Source: a virus
Reading direction: 5' to 3' (one strand)
Length of the DNA stretch: 33,466 nt
Virus record (IMG/VR): IMGVR_UViG_3300047476_000243
Location: 1-33,466 of that record
In this document: in pieces, positions 3,030 through 20,047 of the stretch
Numbering within the stretch: position 1 is the stretch's first letter
How the letters are laid out: each line of letters opens with the position of its first letter
Notes under the pieces: model-generated
The model's input: only the letters and a program-made list of their open reading frames with translations
Database searches by the model: none
What the model was told of the DNA's origin: nothing
Program-made: the position numbers and the translations under genes

Positions 3030-3416
3030 ATGAGTAAACCATTTGATTATGTTAATGAGATTCTTTTAGGAAAAAAGAATTTGATTGTTGATAGAGAAAC
3101 TGAGAAGGAATATAATCCTTATCTTACTAATAAAGCACTAGCCAATCATTTAGACTGTATAGGTTTTGCTAATATGATGAATGAAAGACCTCATCTAGAC
3201 AATAAGTTACAGTTTTTATATTTTATAAATACCGTGAGGTCTAAGAAAAGACCGTTCAATAAGTGGGATAAAGCTGAGAAGCTTGAAGATTTGGAATGCG
3301 TCAAAACATATTATGGCTATTCTGATTCTAAAGCTAAACAAGCACTTCAACTACTTACGGAAGAACAAATCCAAATAATAAGAAAAAAAACCGATATTGG
3401 TGGATTAAGGAAATAA
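3030..3416 (+). CDS. 62: Clamp loader small subunit (gp62)
   Basis: This is the non-ATPase partner of gp44 in the clamp loader complex. At 128 residues it is much shorter than T4 gp62 (187) but about the size of the version in marine T4-like phages. From memory it shares with them the block HLDNKLQFLYFINTVRSKKR followed by FNKW, then KTYYGYSDSKAKQALQLL and a C-terminal GG. The start follows the preceding stop directly, and only one base separates its stop from regA. A TATAAATA string inside it (3224-3231) is probably coincidental. The call rests on family resemblance plus the operon position. Confidence 0.85.
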   Translation: MSKPFDYVNEILLGKKNLIVDRETEKEYNPYLTNKALANHLDCIGFANMMNERPHLDNKLQFLYFINTVRSKKRPFNKWDKAEKLEDLECVKTYYGYSDSKAKQALQLLTEEQIQIIRKKTDIGGLRK

Positions 3417-3417
3417 A

Positions 3418-3822
3418 ATGATTGACATTTCTAGTTTTGTTGAGGTAAAACTCAAAGAACCAGATGACTTTTTAAAAGTGCGAGAAACATTATCACGTAT
3501 AGGTGTAGCTTCAAGAACAGATAAAGTGTTGTATCAATCTTGTCATATATTACATAAACAAGGTAAATATTACATCACACATTTTAAAGAGTTGTTTGCA
3601 CTTGATGATAGACCATCAAGTTTAGATGAAAACGACATACTGAGACGTAATGCGATTGCTAAGTTGTTATCTGATTGGGGTTTAGTAACTATTGCTAATC
3701 CTGAAATTATGGCGGACAAAATTGGTCCATTACATCAAATTAAAGTTATTTCATACAAAGAACGTAATGAGTGGGAACTTGTAAGTAAATATAATATCGG
3801 TAAGAAAAAGACTGATTATTAA
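3418..3822 (+). CDS. regA: RegA translational repressor
   Basis: RegA binds ribosome sites of phage early mRNAs and blocks their translation. The 134-residue product closely follows T4 RegA (122 residues). LKEPDDFLKVRETLSRIG, DKVLYQSCHIL, KYYITHFKE and LLSDWGLV all have obvious T4 counterparts, as does the C-terminal EWELVSKYNIG. Here the N-terminus is about eight residues longer than in T4, and the C-terminus carries a short basic KKKTDY tail. Its stop (3820-3822) is only a few bases before the tmRNA acceptor half, so the regA message and the tmRNA precursor may share a transcript. Confidence 0.95.
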   Translation: MIDISSFVEVKLKEPDDFLKVRETLSRIGVASRTDKVLYQSCHILHKQGKYYITHFKELFALDDRPSSLDENDILRRNAIAKLLSDWGLVTIANPEIMADKIGPLHQIKVISYKERNEWELVSKYNIGKKKTDY

Positions 3823-3897
3823 GAAAACGACGTAAACTCTAAAGTAAGGCATGTTGGACGGCGGTTCGATTCCGCCCATCTCCACCAAAGGTATATT

Positions 3898-4065
3898 ATG
3901 AGAATTTTTAGCAAAGAATATCTAGAGTTTGAACAAAAGCATTTAAAAGAATTAGAAGAACTCTATTATGAAACGTATGATGAAGATTTACGACAAGTTA
4001 TTCTTAAAGCTAGAGAAGTTTTAAAGTGTATCTTTGATGGGGATGACCAGGTTTCGACAGCGTGA
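3898..4065 (+). CDS. Small reading frame inside the tmRNA intervening segment
   Basis: A 55-residue frame starts at ATG 3898, with AAAGG (3887-3891) six bases before it, and stops at TGA 4063-4065. It fills nearly the whole segment between the tmRNA acceptor CCA and coding half. Its last nine codons, including the stop, run through the first 27 bases of the mature tmRNA 5' end. The product is acidic and helical (KHLKELEELYYETYDED in the middle), with no motif I recognise. Processing of the tmRNA precursor would cut this message, so expression of protein and RNA may be mutually exclusive. It may be real or a chance opening; the ribosome site favours real. Confidence 0.5.
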   Translation: MRIFSKEYLEFEQKHLKELEELYYETYDEDLRQVILKAREVLKCIFDGDDQVSTA

Positions 4066-4119
4066 GATAGGATAAGAGCGTCCGTGGAAATAACACGTTA
4101 AAGTTAATCAAATATAACT

Positions 4120-4152
4120 GCAAACGATGAGTTATACGCTGTAGCGGCTTAG
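4120..4152 (+). other. tmRNA proteolysis-tag reading frame (ANDELYAVAA)
   Basis: Starting at the resume codon GCA (4120), the codons read ANDELYAVAA and stop at TAG (4150-4152). The E. coli tag is (A)ANDENYALAA, so only two positions differ, and the AVAA/ALAA-type end is the usual ClpXP degron. The conserved U and A at -5 and -4 before the resume codon are present (TAACT then GCA). An imperfect hairpin (4141-4160) encloses the stop codon, as helix P5 does in other tmRNAs. Confidence 0.92.
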
Positions 4153-4168
4153 TCCACTACTGAGTTTT

Positions 4169-4205
4169 GCTGGTTTGACTTGGAAACAGAACAAATCAGC
4201 TTTTT
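4169..4205 (+). terminator. Hairpin and T-run closing the tmRNA gene
   Basis: GCTGGTTTG (4169-4177) pairs with CAAATCAGC (4192-4200) over nine base pairs with one G-U. It closes a 14-base loop and is followed by TTTTT (4201-4205). It reads as an intrinsic terminator, though it could also be the last helix of the tmRNA coding piece. A ribosome site (AAAGGAG) for the next small gene follows immediately. Confidence 0.7.
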
Positions 4206-4221
4206 AATAAAGGAGTAATAT

Positions 4222-4335
4222 ATGTTAGAAACTTTATTTTGGGTACTAGTTGGGGCATTCATTGGTTGGCACGTTGAGCAACCAGCATGGGCAAAAACAT
4301 TGAAAGCAAAAGTTTTAGGACTTTTTGGTAAATAG
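4222..4335 (+). CDS. 37-residue membrane peptide downstream of the tmRNA
   Basis: ATG 4222 follows a near-consensus AAAGGAG ribosome site (4210-4216). The frame runs 37 residues: a hydrophobic stretch (LFWVLVGAFIGW, residues 5-16), then a Trp/Pro segment and a basic helix (KTLKAKVLGLFGK). It looks like a single-pass or surface-lying membrane peptide. The function is unknown. The strong ribosome site and the tight fit between the tmRNA and the Hsp20 promoter support it as a gene. Its stop lies just before the late promoter at 4338. Confidence 0.65.
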   Translation: MLETLFWVLVGAFIGWHVEQPAWAKTLKAKVLGLFGK

Positions 4336-4337
4336 AT

Positions 4338-4345
4338 TATAAATA
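4338..4345 (+). promoter_or_regulatory. T4-type late promoter for the Hsp20 gene
   Basis: TATAAATA is the exact T4 late promoter -10 consensus, which needs no -35. Transcription would start near 4351, giving a structured leader of about 75 bases before the Hsp20 ATG at 4427. The site lies between genes. Matching elements occur at 12891 and 20043, and one-mismatch versions at 23673 and 25954. Confidence 0.65.
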
Positions 4346-4348
4346 AGT

Positions 4349-4418
4349 TTGTCAGTTCTTTAAAAACTGACAACTATGCCTTCGGGGTAGATTTAATTTA
4401 ACACTCGCTTAATAGGAG
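4349..4418 (+). promoter_or_regulatory. ROSE-like RNA thermometer in the Hsp20 leader
   Basis: The leader can fold into three successive hairpins. The first is a perfect stem, TTGTCAGTT (4349-4357) with AACTGACAA (4365-4373). The second is short and imperfect (4374-4390) with a CCTTCGG core. The third pairs CTCGCT (4404-4409) with the ribosome site AGGAG (4414-4418), leaving one G (4407) unpaired and a UAAU loop. The UYGCU-against-AGGA arrangement with a bulged G is the signature of ROSE thermometers upstream of small heat-shock genes. Melting on warming would expose the ribosome site. The structure is inferred by eye. Confidence 0.6.
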
Positions 4419-4426
4419 AAATTAGC

Positions 4427-4912
4427 ATGACAAACGTAAGACGTATTTCTGTAAATACACTCGGCAATCTGCCACACTCAATCGGCTTCGAAAATGTTAT
4501 CAATCAGATTGATGCATTATTCGACTTCAACAAATCAGTTCCATCTTATCCACCCCACAATGTAATCAAGATAAATGATTATAAGTATATTGTGCAATTT
4601 GCACTTGCAGGTTTCACTAAGGATGAGATAGAATTACAAATAGAAGATAGTAAACTCATTGTCAAAGGCAACAAGAAAGAGCCTACGTCTGATGTAGAAT
4701 ATCTTCACAAAGGAATCGGCACTAGAGCATTCACTAAATCAATCCCTATCATTGATACGGTTGAAGTTGAATATGCTAGTTACGAAGATGGTATCTTACA
4801 TGTAGGATTAGTCAATAATATTCCAGAACATAAGAAACCTAAGAAGATTGAAATTCAATCAGGCGTTAATGTAGTTGAAGTAAAAGATACTAAGAAGTTA
4901 TTAGTAGAGTAA
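4427..4912 (+). CDS. hsp20: Small heat-shock protein, Hsp20/alpha-crystallin family
   Basis: Hsp20 chaperones bind unfolding proteins without using ATP. The 161-residue product has an N-terminal arm with FENVINQIDALFDF, then an alpha-crystallin domain (about residues 40-135): NVIKINDYKYIVQFALAGF, IELQIEDSKLIVKG, and the conserved ASYEDGILHVGL strand. Hsp20 genes are common in T4-like phages of aquatic bacteria. It has its own late promoter and a leader that probably acts as a thermometer. The ribosome site AGGAG is eight bases before the ATG. It may help virion assembly late in infection (inference). Confidence 0.93.
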   Translation: MTNVRRISVNTLGNLPHSIGFENVINQIDALFDFNKSVPSYPPHNVIKINDYKYIVQFALAGFTKDEIELQIEDSKLIVKGNKKEPTSDVEYLHKGIGTRAFTKSIPIIDTVEVEYASYEDGILHVGLVNNIPEHKKPKKIEIQSGVNVVEVKDTKKLLVE

Positions 4913-14395: not shown

Positions 14396-15241
14396 ATGGA
14401 TAAAGATTTGATTATAGGATGCACCACTAACTACAAGTGGGACACAATTAAATATTGGGTAAACTCTATCAATCAGAGTGGTTTTGCTGGTGATAAAGTT
14501 TTGATTATGATGAATGCTGACAAATACACTATGGATAAAGTGATTGAAGCAGGCTTCACAATCATTGGTTTCAATCAAGATGAACAAGGCAACCTTGTTT
14601 ATGATTCACAATTGATGGTTCATGTCGAACGATTCTTACACATTTTCAATCATCTAAACAAAATCGATTACCGTTATGTCATTACGACAGACGTTAAAGA
14701 TGTTGTATTTCAAAGCAATCCTGTTGAATGGCTTGAGTTCATGCTTGACCCATTGAATCCTATGCAATTAGTTTTTGCTAGTGAAAGTATCAAATATAAA
14801 GATGAACCTTGGGGTAATCAGAATCTATTAGAAACTTATGGTGAGTATATCTATAATTACTATAAAGATAATACGATTTACAATGTAGGAGTATTAGCTG
14901 GTCGTGGTTATGCTATGAGAGACTTAGCTATGAATATCTTCCTTGCGTGTTTGAATAAACCTATTCCTATTACAGACCAATCAACGTTTAATGTGATTAC
15001 GTCGATGGAGCCTTACAAGTCAACGAGTTACTATATGAATTCTGAAGATGGTTGGGCATGTCAATTAGGTACGACAGCAGACCCTTCTAAGATTGACGAA
15101 TTTAGAGATAAATTGTTAGAATCTAGTCCTATCATTGATGGTGATATTGTTAAGACAAGCACAGGACATCCTTTTGTGATTGTTCACCAGTATGACCGAG
15201 TGCCAGAATGGCGCAAACTAATTGAGGCAAAATATGGCTAG
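14396..15241 (+). CDS. Putative glycosyltransferase, GT-A-like
   Basis: The 281-residue protein starts a seven-gene cassette. It has a Rossmann-like beginning (DLIIGCTTNYKWDTIKYWV, DKVLIMMNADKY) and a central YVITTDVKDVVFQSNP, where the DVKD stretch is a plausible metal/sugar-nucleotide site in place of the classic DxD. A C-terminal HPFVIVHQYDRVPEW carries a typical late His. TTTTTGGAG precedes the ATG. A TATAAGTA (14361-14368) and a TATAAT (14377-14382) upstream could serve as promoter elements, neither convincing. Donor and acceptor sugars are unknown. Its end overlaps the next gene. Confidence 0.7.
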   Translation: MDKDLIIGCTTNYKWDTIKYWVNSINQSGFAGDKVLIMMNADKYTMDKVIEAGFTIIGFNQDEQGNLVYDSQLMVHVERFLHIFNHLNKIDYRYVITTDVKDVVFQSNPVEWLEFMLDPLNPMQLVFASESIKYKDEPWGNQNLLETYGEYIYNYYKDNTIYNVGVLAGRGYAMRDLAMNIFLACLNKPIPITDQSTFNVITSMEPYKSTSYYMNSEDGWACQLGTTADPSKIDEFRDKLLESSPIIDGDIVKTSTGHPFVIVHQYDRVPEWRKLIEAKYG

Positions 15242-16199
15242 AATTTTATATGTGGTGCATCGCTACGCACCATTTCCTGGTGGTTCTGAAAACTATGTTC
15301 GAGATATGGCTGAAGAGACTCTATCAAGAGGACATGAAGTTTGTGTCTTTACTGGTGAGCATCAAGGTGATTGGAATGGTGTTCGAGTAACTGATTTAAT
15401 TAGTGTTCTAAATGAAAAGTGGGATTTGATTGTAATTCATGGTGGTGATGTTGGAGTACAAGATTTTGTATTACGTCATGCTTCAGCGATTCAATCGCCT
15501 ATTCTGTTTATGTTGATTGTTCCTTCTGAAAGTCAAACATATCTAAATGCTATTAGAGAATGTGATTATATAGGTTGCTCAACAAAAGAAGACTGGAACT
15601 ATGTAATTGATAAAGGTGTTGTTACTAAGTCTAAAGAGATTAGACATGGTATTGACCCTAAAATCTCAACAGGACTTCCTGGCTTTAGAGAGAAATACGG
15701 AATCAAAACTCAATACATGTTCTTATCATGTGGCGGATATTGGCCTAATAAAGCTATGAAAGAACTTGTTGATACATTTAATAGACTTGGTCGTGATGAT
15801 GTCACTTTAGTATTAACTGGTTATGATAACAGACATAATATTAAACCTGAAGAATCAGAATTCGTTAAACCATTGATGGTTGAGAATCGTGATGATGTCA
15901 TGTCTGCTATTATGGAATCTGATTTGTATATCATGCATTCACATAAAGAAGGCTTCGGTCTTGTACTACTTGAAGCTATGTTAAACAAAACACCTTGGAC
16001 TTCAAGAAACATTGCAGGTGCTAAACTCTTAAAAGACTTTGGCTTCACATACGAACACGATGAAGACTTGTTACAATATATGAAAGAATTCTTAGATGCT
16101 GGTTATGTAACAGACGAGAAGATTGATAATGCTTATGAGTTTGTAACATTAAATCACACAATTAAAAATACAGTTGACGATATCTTAAAATTACTATGA
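15234..16199 (+). CDS. Glycosyltransferase family 4-like protein
   Basis: This GT-B fold enzyme would transfer a sugar from a nucleotide donor. From ATG 15234 it has 321 residues. Typical GT4 signatures are present: ILYVVHRYAPFPGGSENYVR at the N-terminus (glycine-rich acceptor-side loop), IRHGIDP, the CGGYWPNKAMKELVD segment at the domain hinge and SHKEGFGLVLLEAMLNKTPW (the EX7E donor-site motif). An in-frame start at 15222 lies deeper in the preceding gene and is less likely. The gene overlaps both neighbours by a few bases, so the cassette is probably translated as a unit. Confidence 0.9.
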   Translation: MARILYVVHRYAPFPGGSENYVRDMAEETLSRGHEVCVFTGEHQGDWNGVRVTDLISVLNEKWDLIVIHGGDVGVQDFVLRHASAIQSPILFMLIVPSESQTYLNAIRECDYIGCSTKEDWNYVIDKGVVTKSKEIRHGIDPKISTGLPGFREKYGIKTQYMFLSCGGYWPNKAMKELVDTFNRLGRDDVTLVLTGYDNRHNIKPEESEFVKPLMVENRDDVMSAIMESDLYIMHSHKEGFGLVLLEAMLNKTPWTSRNIAGAKLLKDFGFTYEHDEDLLQYMKEFLDAGYVTDEKIDNAYEFVTLNHTIKNTVDDILKLL

Positions 16200-16819
16200 A
16201 TTTTACCTTTGCTATAACAACAGATTATTCCAATATGGAACAAATCTATGAAGTCATTGCTTCGATTAGAGAATTGAATGTACCTAAGTATGAAATACTA
16301 CTGATTGGTGACAAACACTTCTATGATGACCCTGATGTTAGATATATACACTTCGATGATACTGAACGTAAAGGTTGGGTAACTCGTAAGAAAAATATTC
16401 TATGCCAAGAAGCGCAGTATGAGAATATTGTATTGATGCATGACTACTATGTTTTTGATAAAGACTGGTACAAATCATATCTTGAGTTTGGTGATGATTG
16501 GGATGTCTGTTCTAATGCTCAGTTATTGATGAATGGTAAAAGACACTTTACTGATTGGGTAACTTGGGATTGTCCTTTGTACCCTAGATATACAGCATTA
16601 CCTTATGATGAATGGGCATTAACTAATTACATGTATCAGTCAGGTGGTTATATGCTAGTCAAGAAACATGTGATGATGACTGAACCATTTAATGAAAATC
16701 TAACTTGGGGTCAAGCTGATGATGTGGAATGGTCTCTAAGAATTCGTACTAAATATAAAATGAAATGTAATGGCAAAGCCATTGTGAGACATAATAAAAG
16801 GCATCGTGATTGTGAATAA
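16196..16819 (+). CDS. GT-A-type glycosyltransferase-like protein
   Basis: The 207-residue product has the order of a family 2-like GT-A domain: FAITTDYSNMEQIYEVIASI, KYEILLIGD, TRKKNILCQEAQYENIVLMH then DYYVFDKDWY (metal-binding position), GGYMLVKKHVM and WGQADDVEWSLRI (the ED-like catalytic region). No transmembrane segment is seen. The start overlaps the preceding stop (ATGA). Similar proteins are found in phage and bacterial glycan clusters. The transferred sugar is unknown. Confidence 0.75.
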   Translation: MNFTFAITTDYSNMEQIYEVIASIRELNVPKYEILLIGDKHFYDDPDVRYIHFDDTERKGWVTRKKNILCQEAQYENIVLMHDYYVFDKDWYKSYLEFGDDWDVCSNAQLLMNGKRHFTDWVTWDCPLYPRYTALPYDEWALTNYMYQSGGYMLVKKHVMMTEPFNENLTWGQADDVEWSLRIRTKYKMKCNGKAIVRHNKRHRDCE

Positions 16820-18185
16820 ACTTGTTATATTTGATTTAGATGGTGTATTAATCGACTCTCGAGAATTACACTATGAAGCATTAAATGAAGCATTAAATGA
16901 AATTGGTGAGCAATATGTTATTAGTCGTGATGAACACTTAAGTTTATATGATGGACTAAGCACAACCAAAAAATTAAAAATGTTGACCGAAAGAAAAGGT
17001 CTTCCTGTTGAATCTCATGATTTGGTTTGGAAAAACAAGCAAAACTCAACTATTAGTTTAGTTTCCGAACTAAAAATAAACCACACAGCAAGTTATATCT
17101 TTGGCCACCTGAAAATGCGTGGTTGGAAGATTGCAGTAGCCTCAAACAGTATTCGAGAGACTGTTCGTGTTGCACTGCATTCTATTGGTGTTTTAGGTTA
17201 TGTTGATTACGTAGTCAGTAATGAAGACGTTAAACATACTAAACCACATCCTGAAATGTATTGGAGATGCATGATTGCACTTAATGCATTACCTGAAAAC
17301 ACAATTATTGTAGAAGACAGTCATATTGGTCGAGAAGGTGCTATCAAGTCTGGCGGTAATCTTTATCCAGTTAAGAACGCAGACGATTTAAATGGCAACA
17401 GATTTTTACAATACGTTGATGATTTTGAATTGACAAATAAAAATATTAATGTACCATGGAGAAATGAAAAGATGAATGTATTAATTCCTATGGCTGGTGC
17501 TGGCTCTAGATTCGCACAAGCAGGATACACTTTCCCTAAACCTTTGATTGAAGTCAACGGTAAACCTATGATTCAAGTTGTAGTTGAAAACTTGAATGTA
17601 GAAGCACACTTCATTTACTTGGTACAAAAAGAGCACTATGAGAAATATAATCTTAAACAGTTGCTCAATCTAATTACACCTGGTTGCGACATCATTCAAG
17701 TTGATGGTGTTACTGATGGTGCCGCAAGAACTACATTGTTAGCAAAAGAATTGATTGATAACGGTGAGCCTTTATTGATGGCTAACTCAGACCAATATGT
17801 TGAATGGAATTCTAATGAAGTGTTGTATGCATTTACTGCCGATGAAGTTGATGGTGGTATCGTAACATTCAAAGCAACTCATCCTAAGTGGTCATTCGCT
17901 AAGATTGGTGATGATGGTTTCATTTCTGAAGTTGCTGAGAAGAATCCTATTTCTGATAATGCAACAGTGGGAATCTATTACTGGAAGAAAGGTTCAGACT
18001 ATGTTAAGTATGCTGAACAAATGATTTCAAAAGACATTCGCACTAATGGTGAATTCTACACATGTCCTTCATTCAATGAAGCGATTGCTGATGGTAAGAA
18101 GATTAGAAACAAATCAATTGAAAAGATGTGGGGTTTAGGTACACCTGAAGACTTACATTATTATTTGGAGAATCATAGAGTATGA
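16806..18185 (+). CDS. HAD phosphatase fused to a sugar nucleotidyltransferase
   Basis: This is a two-domain protein of 459 residues. Residues 1-215 form a HAD hydrolase with motif I VIFDLDGVLIDS, motif II VASNS, a KPHPEMY lysine and IVEDSHIGREGA. From Met223 a nucleotidyltransferase begins: MNVLIPMAGAGSRF, FPKPLIEVNGKPM, LLMANSDQY and MWGLGTPEDLHYYL near the end. It may make an NDP-sugar, with the phosphatase acting on a sugar phosphate. The start is a GTG at 16806 or 16812, after AAAAGG. An internal in-frame ATG (17472) with GAGAAATGAAAAG upstream might give the second domain alone. Confidence 0.88.
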   Translation: MIVNKLVIFDLDGVLIDSRELHYEALNEALNEIGEQYVISRDEHLSLYDGLSTTKKLKMLTERKGLPVESHDLVWKNKQNSTISLVSELKINHTASYIFGHLKMRGWKIAVASNSIRETVRVALHSIGVLGYVDYVVSNEDVKHTKPHPEMYWRCMIALNALPENTIIVEDSHIGREGAIKSGGNLYPVKNADDLNGNRFLQYVDDFELTNKNINVPWRNEKMNVLIPMAGAGSRFAQAGYTFPKPLIEVNGKPMIQVVVENLNVEAHFIYLVQKEHYEKYNLKQLLNLITPGCDIIQVDGVTDGAARTTLLAKELIDNGEPLLMANSDQYVEWNSNEVLYAFTADEVDGGIVTFKATHPKWSFAKIGDDGFISEVAEKNPISDNATVGIYYWKKGSDYVKYAEQMISKDIRTNGEFYTCPSFNEAIADGKKIRNKSIEKMWGLGTPEDLHYYLENHRV

Positions 18186-18922
18186 AAGTAGCCGTTATTT
18201 TAACTGGTCATATGCGTAGTTGGGGAAAAGTATTTCCTAACTTTAAAGAAAAAGTACTTGACAAATATAATCCTGATGTTTTTATTCACACATGGTCAGA
18301 CGAAGGTTGGTGGACTCCTGGTGATAAAGTAACTGAAACAGGTGTATTTGATGATAGTCCTGAGATTAATGTAGGTGCAATCATTCAAGCATATCAACCA
18401 AAAGATATTCGACTTGAAGATTGGAACAAAAGAATAATTGATGATGTTCCTTCATTTAACGAACACTTTGAACAAAGAGGATATGAATATCCTAACTTTG
18501 CACATAAACCTAGAAACATTTTAAGTATGTTTTATAAGTTGAGTGAAGGTGTTTCTCTTATGAATAACTATGCGGCTAAGAATGGTCAGCAATATGATTT
18601 AGTTATTCGTATGAGACCTGATATGATTATTGATGATTTACCTGATTTTGAATTGAACAAGTTCTACACACTTGCTCATAAGAATCATCTTGGTCAAGGT
18701 ACAGGTGACATGATTCAAGTAGGTAGTGTATTGCAAATGAATCTATTTGCTTTATTACCACAAAATATAAACCTTCTATATAATCATACACAGTTATTAT
18801 GTCCTCATGTATTATCTGAAACATGGATTAATGCATTACATTTAAACTGGGAAGAATTCTCAATCAATAAAACTATTATGCATACACCAAAAGGTCCGTA
18901 TGTGGAAATGACAAATGAATAA
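18182..18922 (+). CDS. Glycosyltransferase-like protein of the glycan cassette
   Basis: The 246-residue protein opens with VAVILTGHMRSWGKVFPNF and PDVFIHTWSDEGWW, and later has YDLVIRMRPDMIID, where the RPD stretch fits the DxD-like site of a GT-A fold. Proteins of this pattern appear in polysaccharide clusters and large viruses as putative glycosyltransferases. The start overlaps the stop of the fusion gene and the end overlaps the methyltransferase. Substrate unknown. Confidence 0.68.
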   Translation: MKVAVILTGHMRSWGKVFPNFKEKVLDKYNPDVFIHTWSDEGWWTPGDKVTETGVFDDSPEINVGAIIQAYQPKDIRLEDWNKRIIDDVPSFNEHFEQRGYEYPNFAHKPRNILSMFYKLSEGVSLMNNYAAKNGQQYDLVIRMRPDMIIDDLPDFELNKFYTLAHKNHLGQGTGDMIQVGSVLQMNLFALLPQNINLLYNHTQLLCPHVLSETWINALHLNWEEFSINKTIMHTPKGPYVEMTNE

Positions 18923-19595
18923 TTTCGAAAAGATTGTTACGCTAACAGACGGCCCTGTTCAGTATGAGATGACTGGTACTAATAATATTAAGATGGTACA
19001 GCATCCATATCCATACTCAATTAAAAAAGAAGAGTTTGAATTCTTAACTAAACTGATTGCAGATAATAACCTTAAAAATGGATATGAGTGTGCAACAGCT
19101 TTTGGTGTAAGTTCACTTGCTATTGGGCTAGGCTTTAAACAAACTGGTGGTAAATGTGTGACTATGGATGCATACATTGAAGAAAAGTGTAAGAATCCAG
19201 GTAAGTATAAAGACTTCGCTCGTGAAGTTTATGATAAAGCTGATGGTTTTAAATCAGTCAATTATTTAATTGAAAAATTTGATTTGAAAGACACATTGTA
19301 TCCTGAAATTGGTTGGAGTCCTGATGATACAGAAACTGCCGTTAGAAAACACATCAAAGAACCTTTAGATTTTGTGTTCATTGATGCAGGACACTTTCCT
19401 GAACAAATGATTAAAGATATTGATGCATTCTTACCATTATTAGGTGAAAAGTATATTTTAGCATTTCATGATGTATATGCATGGAGTTTTTCTGAAGCTG
19501 TGCATGAACACTTATTCAATAAAATAGGCAAGCGAGTTGAGATTAAAGTTCCTCATCCTGCTGGTGAAAATTTAGCGATTGTTTGGAATCTATAA
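18915..19595 (+). CDS. SAM-dependent methyltransferase, class I
   Basis: The 226-residue protein has a class I methyltransferase core (Methyltransf_24-like): GYECATAFGVSSLAIGLGF at the SAM loop, GGKCVTMDAYIEE with an acidic residue after strand 2, LDFVFIDAGHFPEQMIKDID at strand 4 and ILAFHDVYAW. Members of this group often methylate sugars in cell-surface glycans, which fits the neighbouring glycosyltransferases. It overlaps the genes on both sides. The methylated position is not known. Confidence 0.8.
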   Translation: MNNFEKIVTLTDGPVQYEMTGTNNIKMVQHPYPYSIKKEEFEFLTKLIADNNLKNGYECATAFGVSSLAIGLGFKQTGGKCVTMDAYIEEKCKNPGKYKDFAREVYDKADGFKSVNYLIEKFDLKDTLYPEIGWSPDDTETAVRKHIKEPLDFVFIDAGHFPEQMIKDIDAFLPLLGEKYILAFHDVYAWSFSEAVHEHLFNKIGKRVEIKVPHPAGENLAIVWNL

Positions 19596-20047
19596 TGATA
19601 CTAATAGCACATAGAGGTAATTTATCTGGTCCTAATCCAACACAAGAAAATAAACCTGAATACATTCAACAAGCACTTGATGAAGGTTATTCAGTTGAAA
19701 TTGATTTAAGAATGAAAGATGATGTTTTATTTTTAGGTCATGATTATGCTCAGTATGAAGTTGATGAAGAGTTTTTAGACAAATATAGTGGAAGACTTTG
19801 GGTACATTGTAAAGATGCTAAAGCTTTCACTAGAGCATTACAACTAAATCTAAATTGTTTTTGGCACAATACAGACGACTATACTATGACTAGTTATGGA
19901 TATGTCTGGTGTTTTCCAAGTAAAGAACCTGTAGGCAAAATGAGTGTTACTGTGTTACCTGAACTATATGCTGATGTATCAGAAATAGATAAAGAAAAAG
20001 TGTTTGCAGTGTGTTCAGACTACGTTTCAAAGATAAAAAACATATAA
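19595..20047 (+). CDS. Glycerophosphodiesterase-like (GDPD/PI-PLC type) protein
   Basis: From ATG 19595 it has 150 residues. The N-terminus follows the GDPD pattern: IAHRGNLSGPNP (catalytic His-Arg), ALDEGYSVEIDLRMKDD (metal-binding Glu and Asp) and LFLGHDYAQYEV (second His). The protein is shorter than full GDPDs (about 230-250 residues) and its C-terminal half is divergent (RLWVHCKDAKAF, CFWHNTDDYTMTSYGY). It may act on a glycerophosphoryl-type substituent of the glycan. It is the last gene of the cassette and ends just before a late promoter. Confidence 0.75.
   Translation: MILIAHRGNLSGPNPTQENKPEYIQQALDEGYSVEIDLRMKDDVLFLGHDYAQYEVDEEFLDKYSGRLWVHCKDAKAFTRALQLNLNCFWHNTDDYTMTSYGYVWCFPSKEPVGKMSVTVLPELYADVSEIDKEKVFAVCSDYVSKIKNI

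Follow-up and report, generated by a model that had tools for sequence, protein, structure and literature searches.

Is the spacer of a permuted tmRNA gene discarded RNA, as it has so far been treated, or can it house a gene of its own? A tmRNA locus in a marine-type, T4-like phage contig raises this question. The contig, from a virus of bacteria, is a 33,466-base virus record in IMG/VR, and we refer to this whole stretch as the window. T4-like clamp loader genes lie near the locus (1062-2006 and 3030-3416), a RegA repressor gene (3418-3822) precedes it, and an Hsp20 gene (4427-4912) comes after it, with genes for dCMP deaminase, an endolysin and MazG beyond. The window's DNA polymerase shares about 49% identity with cyanophage DNA polymerases.

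We confirmed by sequence analysis that positions 3828-4205 (+ strand) form a complete circularly permuted tmRNA gene of a known kind, as an earlier sequence-only reading had claimed. ARAGORN called a permuted tmRNA (tmRNA*) at 3795-4243 with the tag ANDELYAVAA. Two Rfam covariance models agreed: RF04321 (tmRNA_permuted) matched 3828-4152 over its full model (positions 1-213; 103.3 bits against a gathering cut-off of 47, E 2.5e-19), and RF01850 (beta_tmRNA) matched 3777-4206 (88.8 bits against a cut-off of 84), with a long insert at the intervening segment (IVS) and a poorly fitting 3′ end. Compared with 100 dinucleotide shuffles, the complete element folds better than every one (z = -4.3), and an Rfam scan of the window found no intron family.

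Sequence, ARAGORN and Rfam together delimit the parts of the gene, all on the + strand. The acceptor piece (3828-3887) carries the upstream strands of a P2-type helix, the perfect T-arm described earlier (GGCGG-TTCGATT-CCGCC, 3860-3876, read directly), the acceptor 3′ strand CATCTCC (3877-3883), A 3884 and CCA (3885-3887). A 151-nt IVS (3888-4038) separates the two pieces and is expected, by analogy with known two-piece tmRNAs, to be removed during maturation. The coding piece (4039-4206) opens with the 5′ acceptor strand GGGGATG (4039-4045), which forms with CATCTCC the seven acceptor pairs previously reported, including G3-U70, and continues through the resume region to the tag frame. The tag, with an alanine-rich C-terminal degron, lies at 4120-4149, is followed by the stop TAG (4150-4152), and is the one that both the earlier reading and ARAGORN gave. 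A hairpin with an AACAGAA motif and a T-run closes the piece (4169-4205). That hairpin (4169-4200) exists, but its description as terminator-like stood only in part: we assign it to the tmRNA because related tmRNAs have the AACAGAA hairpin too, usually lacking the T-run, and the window's copy may end transcription as well. The window's tmRNA most likely acts as an ordinary tmRNA with the host's SmpB and protease. The roles put forward for it (ribosome recycling, tagging, replacing the host tmRNA) are plausible.

Permuted tmRNAs are already known in phages, and the suggestion that this one might be new in kind did not survive comparison. They were published in 2022 (PMC9004378), in a study whose tmRNA passages report a tmRNA in 402 of 18,146 phage genomes, 53 of them two-piece (from cultured phages) and 50 of these aquatic. 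The same passages describe two-piece forms in the OM43 phage Melnitz, the pelagiphage Mosig and 17 of 47 Melnitz-like contigs; those of Melnitz and Mosig resemble the window's in being two-piece tmRNAs of marine T4-like phages. A 2025 tmRNA database, in which RF04321 was created, holds 79 phage tmRNA sequences (PMC11915505), and we parsed 255 distinct phage permuted tmRNAs from IMG/VR. Members of RF04321 and RF01850 share with the window the gene order, the acceptor stem with G3-U70, the T-arm, the tag and the resume region.

The unusual part is the spacer, where the sequence-only reading had overlooked a protein gene. An open reading frame (P0001; 3898-4066, +) begins at an ATG 10 nt past the CCA, behind a Shine-Dalgarno (SD)-like AAAGG (3887-3891) that adjoins the CCA within an 11-nt stretch of SD and leader (3887-3897). 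The frame runs for 47 codons to the last base of the IVS (3898-4038) with no stop; in the unprocessed transcript it continues for 8 more codons into the coding piece and ends at TGA 4064-4066. An AlphaFold2 model of the IVS protein is a two-helix hairpin with a mean pLDDT of 91.3. Fold searches with this model gave no informative match and nothing at E ≤ 0.001, searches of named families and of PDB sequences gave no significant match, and 50,697 cultured-phage records contained no match. The ribosome-rescue factor ArfA was considered as its identity and set aside, there being no similarity in sequence or fold.

The protein recurs in the spacers of other viral permuted tmRNAs, and its family comprises only four distinct IVS members, including the window's. 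One came from a protein search of viral contigs (L122, with the tag ANDQVYALAA, inside a tRNA cluster) and another from parsing viral tmRNAs (L112, the same as L127; tag ANDELFALAA). The last (L494), also obtained by parsing, lies in a tmRNA with an alpha-type T-loop and the tag ANENFAPTGYALAA. Identities to the window's protein are 77% for L122, 77% for L112/L127 and 57% for L494, all gap-free, and tags, tmRNA types and neighbourhoods differ between the three. The L112 frame opens at a TTG codon, and the SD of L122 is weak. For all six pairs among the four homologues, dN/dS lies between 0.14 and 0.45, indicating purifying selection at the codon level. As an aside on the parsing, next to the permuted tmRNA in L112 (8991-9715) and L048 (3588-4175) ARAGORN calls a second, overlapping one of standard form whose tag is implausible; these standard-form calls are likely false.

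A further relative places the protein outside any intact tmRNA. In L636, a protein nearly identical to that of L494 is encoded with an SD at 4001-4156, flanked by the acceptor strands CGACTCC-ACCA and GGGGTCG, but the upstream T-arm and the downstream tag are missing. Acceptor-CCA hairpin modules stand in tandem at 3866-4164, with a tRNA-like gene (44.4 bits) in the first spacer and the IVS protein in the second. A complete second permuted tmRNA follows at 4244-4635; its 81-nt spacer has no ORF. Since L636 keeps the reading frame where the surrounding RNA gene has been lost, this sequence points to selection on the protein. Such decay could also suggest that the window's tmRNA is itself a pseudogene, a decaying remnant kept for the nested ORF alone. 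We consider this very improbable, as every tested tmRNA element of the window is intact and the gene scores above the Rfam cut-offs.

We then asked how often viral spacers carry such frames. Two pattern scans not selected for ORFs yielded 129 distinct permuted tmRNAs of viruses, which clustering reduced to 108. We counted an ORF as IVS-spanning when its ATG lay 4-18 nt after the CCA and its frame ran across the IVS, and 1,000 dinucleotide shuffles served as the null. Of the 27 clusters whose IVS measured 100 nt or more, 13 had a spanning ORF, compared with a shuffle mean of 0.74 and a maximum of 4 in 1,000 shuffles. For spacers of 76-99 nt the count was 8 of 33 against 2.75 in shuffles. The excess is accompanied by translation signals: among IVSs of 76 nt or more, 12 of the 21 with an ORF and 1 of the 39 without have an SD-like motif within 14 nt of the CCA (p = 2e-6). 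In a third sample, drawn from alpha-type viral tmRNAs and again not chosen for ORFs, the excess was weaker (3 of 13 IVSs that reached 100 nt, 0.35 expected). A targeted scan for an SD and an ATG after the CCA, biased by design, added dozens more IVS ORFs of 20 to 90 residues.

Could the window's frame nonetheless be an accident in the non-functional spacer of an ordinary phage two-piece tmRNA? The tmRNA needs no such frame, given that 62 of the 129 viral tmRNAs have an IVS of at most 75 nt and that these show no ORF excess over shuffles. Accident accounts poorly for the excess in longer spacers, the SD enrichment and the conservation of codon pattern in 12 protein families, for the free-standing homologues of two other IVS proteins, or for the ORF that outlives its tmRNA in L636. 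We therefore judge the accidental reading improbable and put the probability that the window's IVS is a genuine nested protein gene, as these sequence comparisons suggest, at about 0.8.

The 12 families, the window's and eleven further ones, each occur in at least two distinct IVSs, with pairwise dN/dS below 0.6 in nearly every case. They include small membrane-type peptides, soluble helical proteins and one strongly basic family of 46 residues (MRIPMKGGDEFDGL...KRKYNKRRRKTFYD; L405, L422, L472, L491 and L505), which is nonstop in the IVS frame. Scanned against family databases, the IVS proteins had no convincing named relative, bar a weak match (E 1e-4) of the basic family to phrog_16066, a PHROG of unknown function. 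By eye, the spacers of five alpha-type phage tmRNAs (L557, L605, L533, L592 and L572) hold two overlapping ORFs, encoding a short acidic peptide with a GDSDEEPS motif and a membrane peptide (MKNPLVREVSKWMFKAYILWSICADITLLAGIIYLVFF in L572). A CxC...CxxC pattern in the L014 and L163 proteins would suit a ferredoxin-like (Bfd-like) reading; Pfam gave no support for it, and we dropped it.

Two known arrangements resemble these nested genes. A group I intron-containing tmRNA with a homing endonuclease gene (PMC11915505) likewise has a protein gene in a removed segment of the tmRNA gene. The phage segment, by contrast, is the spacer between two RNA pieces and no intron, and its proteins have 20-90 residues; the scanned IVS proteins had no significant match to homing endonuclease families, the one NUMOD1 hit being non-significant (E 0.1). 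A permuted tmRNA from one nominally archaeal MAG has a second gene, a tRNA-Ala, in its IVS (PMC11915505). That case is an RNA gene described as unique, whereas the phage spacers hold protein genes and do so recurrently. tRNAs as a general cause of long spacers were rejected: ARAGORN found none in IVSs of at least 50 nt, and L636 provides one tRNA-like case.

Some spacer proteins also exist outside spacers. The L162 IVS protein has free-standing relatives directly upstream of the tmRNA in L034, L179 and L182, and the L014 IVS protein has them directly upstream of the tmRNAs in L163, L174 and L217. Spacer genes and tmRNA-adjacent genes are therefore interchangeable over evolution, and we propose from these comparisons that phage tmRNA spacers serve as cargo slots for microprotein genes. 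Whether the cargo has anything to do with the tmRNA is a separate matter. The spacer might be a neutral haven into which genes adjacent to tmRNAs and tRNAs recombine, to be tolerated there and translated like any gene of an operon, functionally independent of the tmRNA. This is a real possibility, though one we hold at less than even odds. It would explain why the same small genes lie either directly upstream of a tmRNA or within its IVS, why the spacer proteins are mutually unrelated, and how the tandem module of L636 came to hold a tRNA-like gene in its first spacer. It fits less well with three features of the frames: start codons at a nearly fixed distance past the CCA, frequent stops at the last UGA of the spacer, and a leader that pairs with the last codons. 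Because of these features, the ORFs appear fitted to the tmRNA architecture.

In the window, TGAT (4035-4038) lies opposite ACCA (3884-3887), one position being mismatched. The acceptor stem is prolonged by pairing of 3888-3897 with 4025-4034; the 3′ end of the IVS (4025-4038, +) consists of codons complementary to the leader and SD strand, then the TGAT. The last four IVS bases are TGAT in nearly all viral permuted tmRNAs and apparently pair with ACCA. Across 49 independent ORF-bearing IVSs, the first and last 16 nt pair at a mean of -9.0 kcal/mol, compared with -4.75 (s.d. 0.31) after ends were exchanged between IVSs. This end stem is also present in ORF-less IVSs, and we therefore regard it as a tmRNA feature onto which the SD and last codons of the ORF fit. 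As the IVS ends extend the acceptor stem, the SD would lie within a helix in the folded precursor.

This geometry suggests a tentative mechanism that couples the nested gene to the tmRNA. Ribosomes would start on the phage transcript at the IVS start codon. Folding of the pre-tmRNA would bury the SD in the lengthened acceptor stem, and host tRNA-processing enzymes would cut the ends to yield the two tmRNA pieces; a ribosome on the IVS would instead open the stem. A single transcript would thus either be translated into the small protein or mature into tmRNA, the two outcomes competing. In general form, phage two-piece tmRNAs would be bifunctional transcripts, each becoming either tmRNA or mRNA, with the spacer a microprotein gene under regulation, its ribosome-binding site hidden where the acceptor stem is extended; where the frame lacks a stop, the nonstop product would be tagged by the tmRNA from the same transcript. 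The nested gene is very likely real and its regulatory coupling plausible; the complete scheme we regard as less likely than not.

Stop codons divide the spacers into classes. In 22 of the 49 clusters the ORF stop is the UGA of the conserved UGAU abutting the mature 5′ end. In 16 there is no stop inside the IVS (11 in frame 0, the window included, and 5 in frame 2); these span the window, L122, L112 and other families. A released spacer of this stop-less class would therefore be a nonstop mRNA. In the window's class, ribosomes on the released IVS would become trans-translation substrates and the protein would be degron-tagged, which by analogy could form a self-limiting loop like that of arfA, whose nonstop mRNA is repressed by trans-translation (PMC10107115). 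The proposed logic is the same as in arfA, and there is no sequence relation. Such feedback cannot be general, since many IVS families stop at the last UGA.

The nonstop class also invites the idea that the nested protein itself acts in ribosome rescue or tmRNA control, as an ArfA-like backup or a regulator of tmRNA or SmpB, and is repressed by trans-translation as a nonstop product. The stop-less frames of the window, L122 and L112 would suit such a role, as would the strongly basic character of one stop-less family, the L405 group. We find it unlikely: no similarity in sequence or fold links the protein to ArfA or any rescue factor, and many other IVS families have a stop and encode membrane-type peptides.

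The alpha- and betaproteobacterial-type host tmRNAs sampled differ from these phage genes in their spacers. A first host control scan returned mostly one-piece tmRNAs, so we used a class-wide search of Alphaproteobacteria, in which 263 of 289 genomes scored above the RF04321 cut-off. From these we took 30 of the best and 20 with long spans, and parsed 49. Among the 49 alphaproteobacterial tmRNAs, no IVS of 60 nt or longer had a spanning ORF, and their spacers were mostly 10-90 nt (longest, 165 nt). Five betaproteobacterial-type tmRNAs had spacers of 3-4 nt. These host two-piece tmRNAs thus combine a short IVS with no spanning ORF, whereas the window's IVS encodes what appears to be a conserved protein.

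The cultured phages searched contained no IVS-ORF tmRNA; two further coding pieces from phages, searched as DNA, found no match in them, nor did the L143, L173, L405-type, L599-type and cysteine-motif IVS proteins. Three cultured-phage permuted tmRNAs examined had no comparable IVS ORF: Mosig has only a short frame in a 44-nt IVS, and the tmRNA passages of PMC9004378 mention no IVS protein. The IVS-ORF phages that we recognized have no cultured relative in the searched collection. In the open-access tmRNA literature, a scope that leaves out preprints and most subscription journals, we found no mention of conserved, SD-led protein genes in phage permuted-tmRNA spacers.

If phage spacers routinely house conserved small-protein genes, searches for host-takeover peptides overlooked by gene callers would have a new target. 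The overlap of an RNA gene with a protein gene would also be of a new kind, and ribosome rescue might be tied directly to phage protein expression. Such an arrangement could give phages a reason for keeping the permuted form.

Two further features of the window deserve mention. Directly after the tmRNA, a small ORF (4222-4335, +) with a strong SD (AAAGGAG) encodes MLETLFWVLVGAFIGWHVEQPAWAKTLKAKVLGLFGK, likely a single-pass membrane peptide, for which a Pfam search gave no match. Between the replication and structural genes, positions 14396-20047 hold a series of glycosyltransferase-, nucleotidyltransferase- and methyltransferase-like ORFs, as judged from their translations only.
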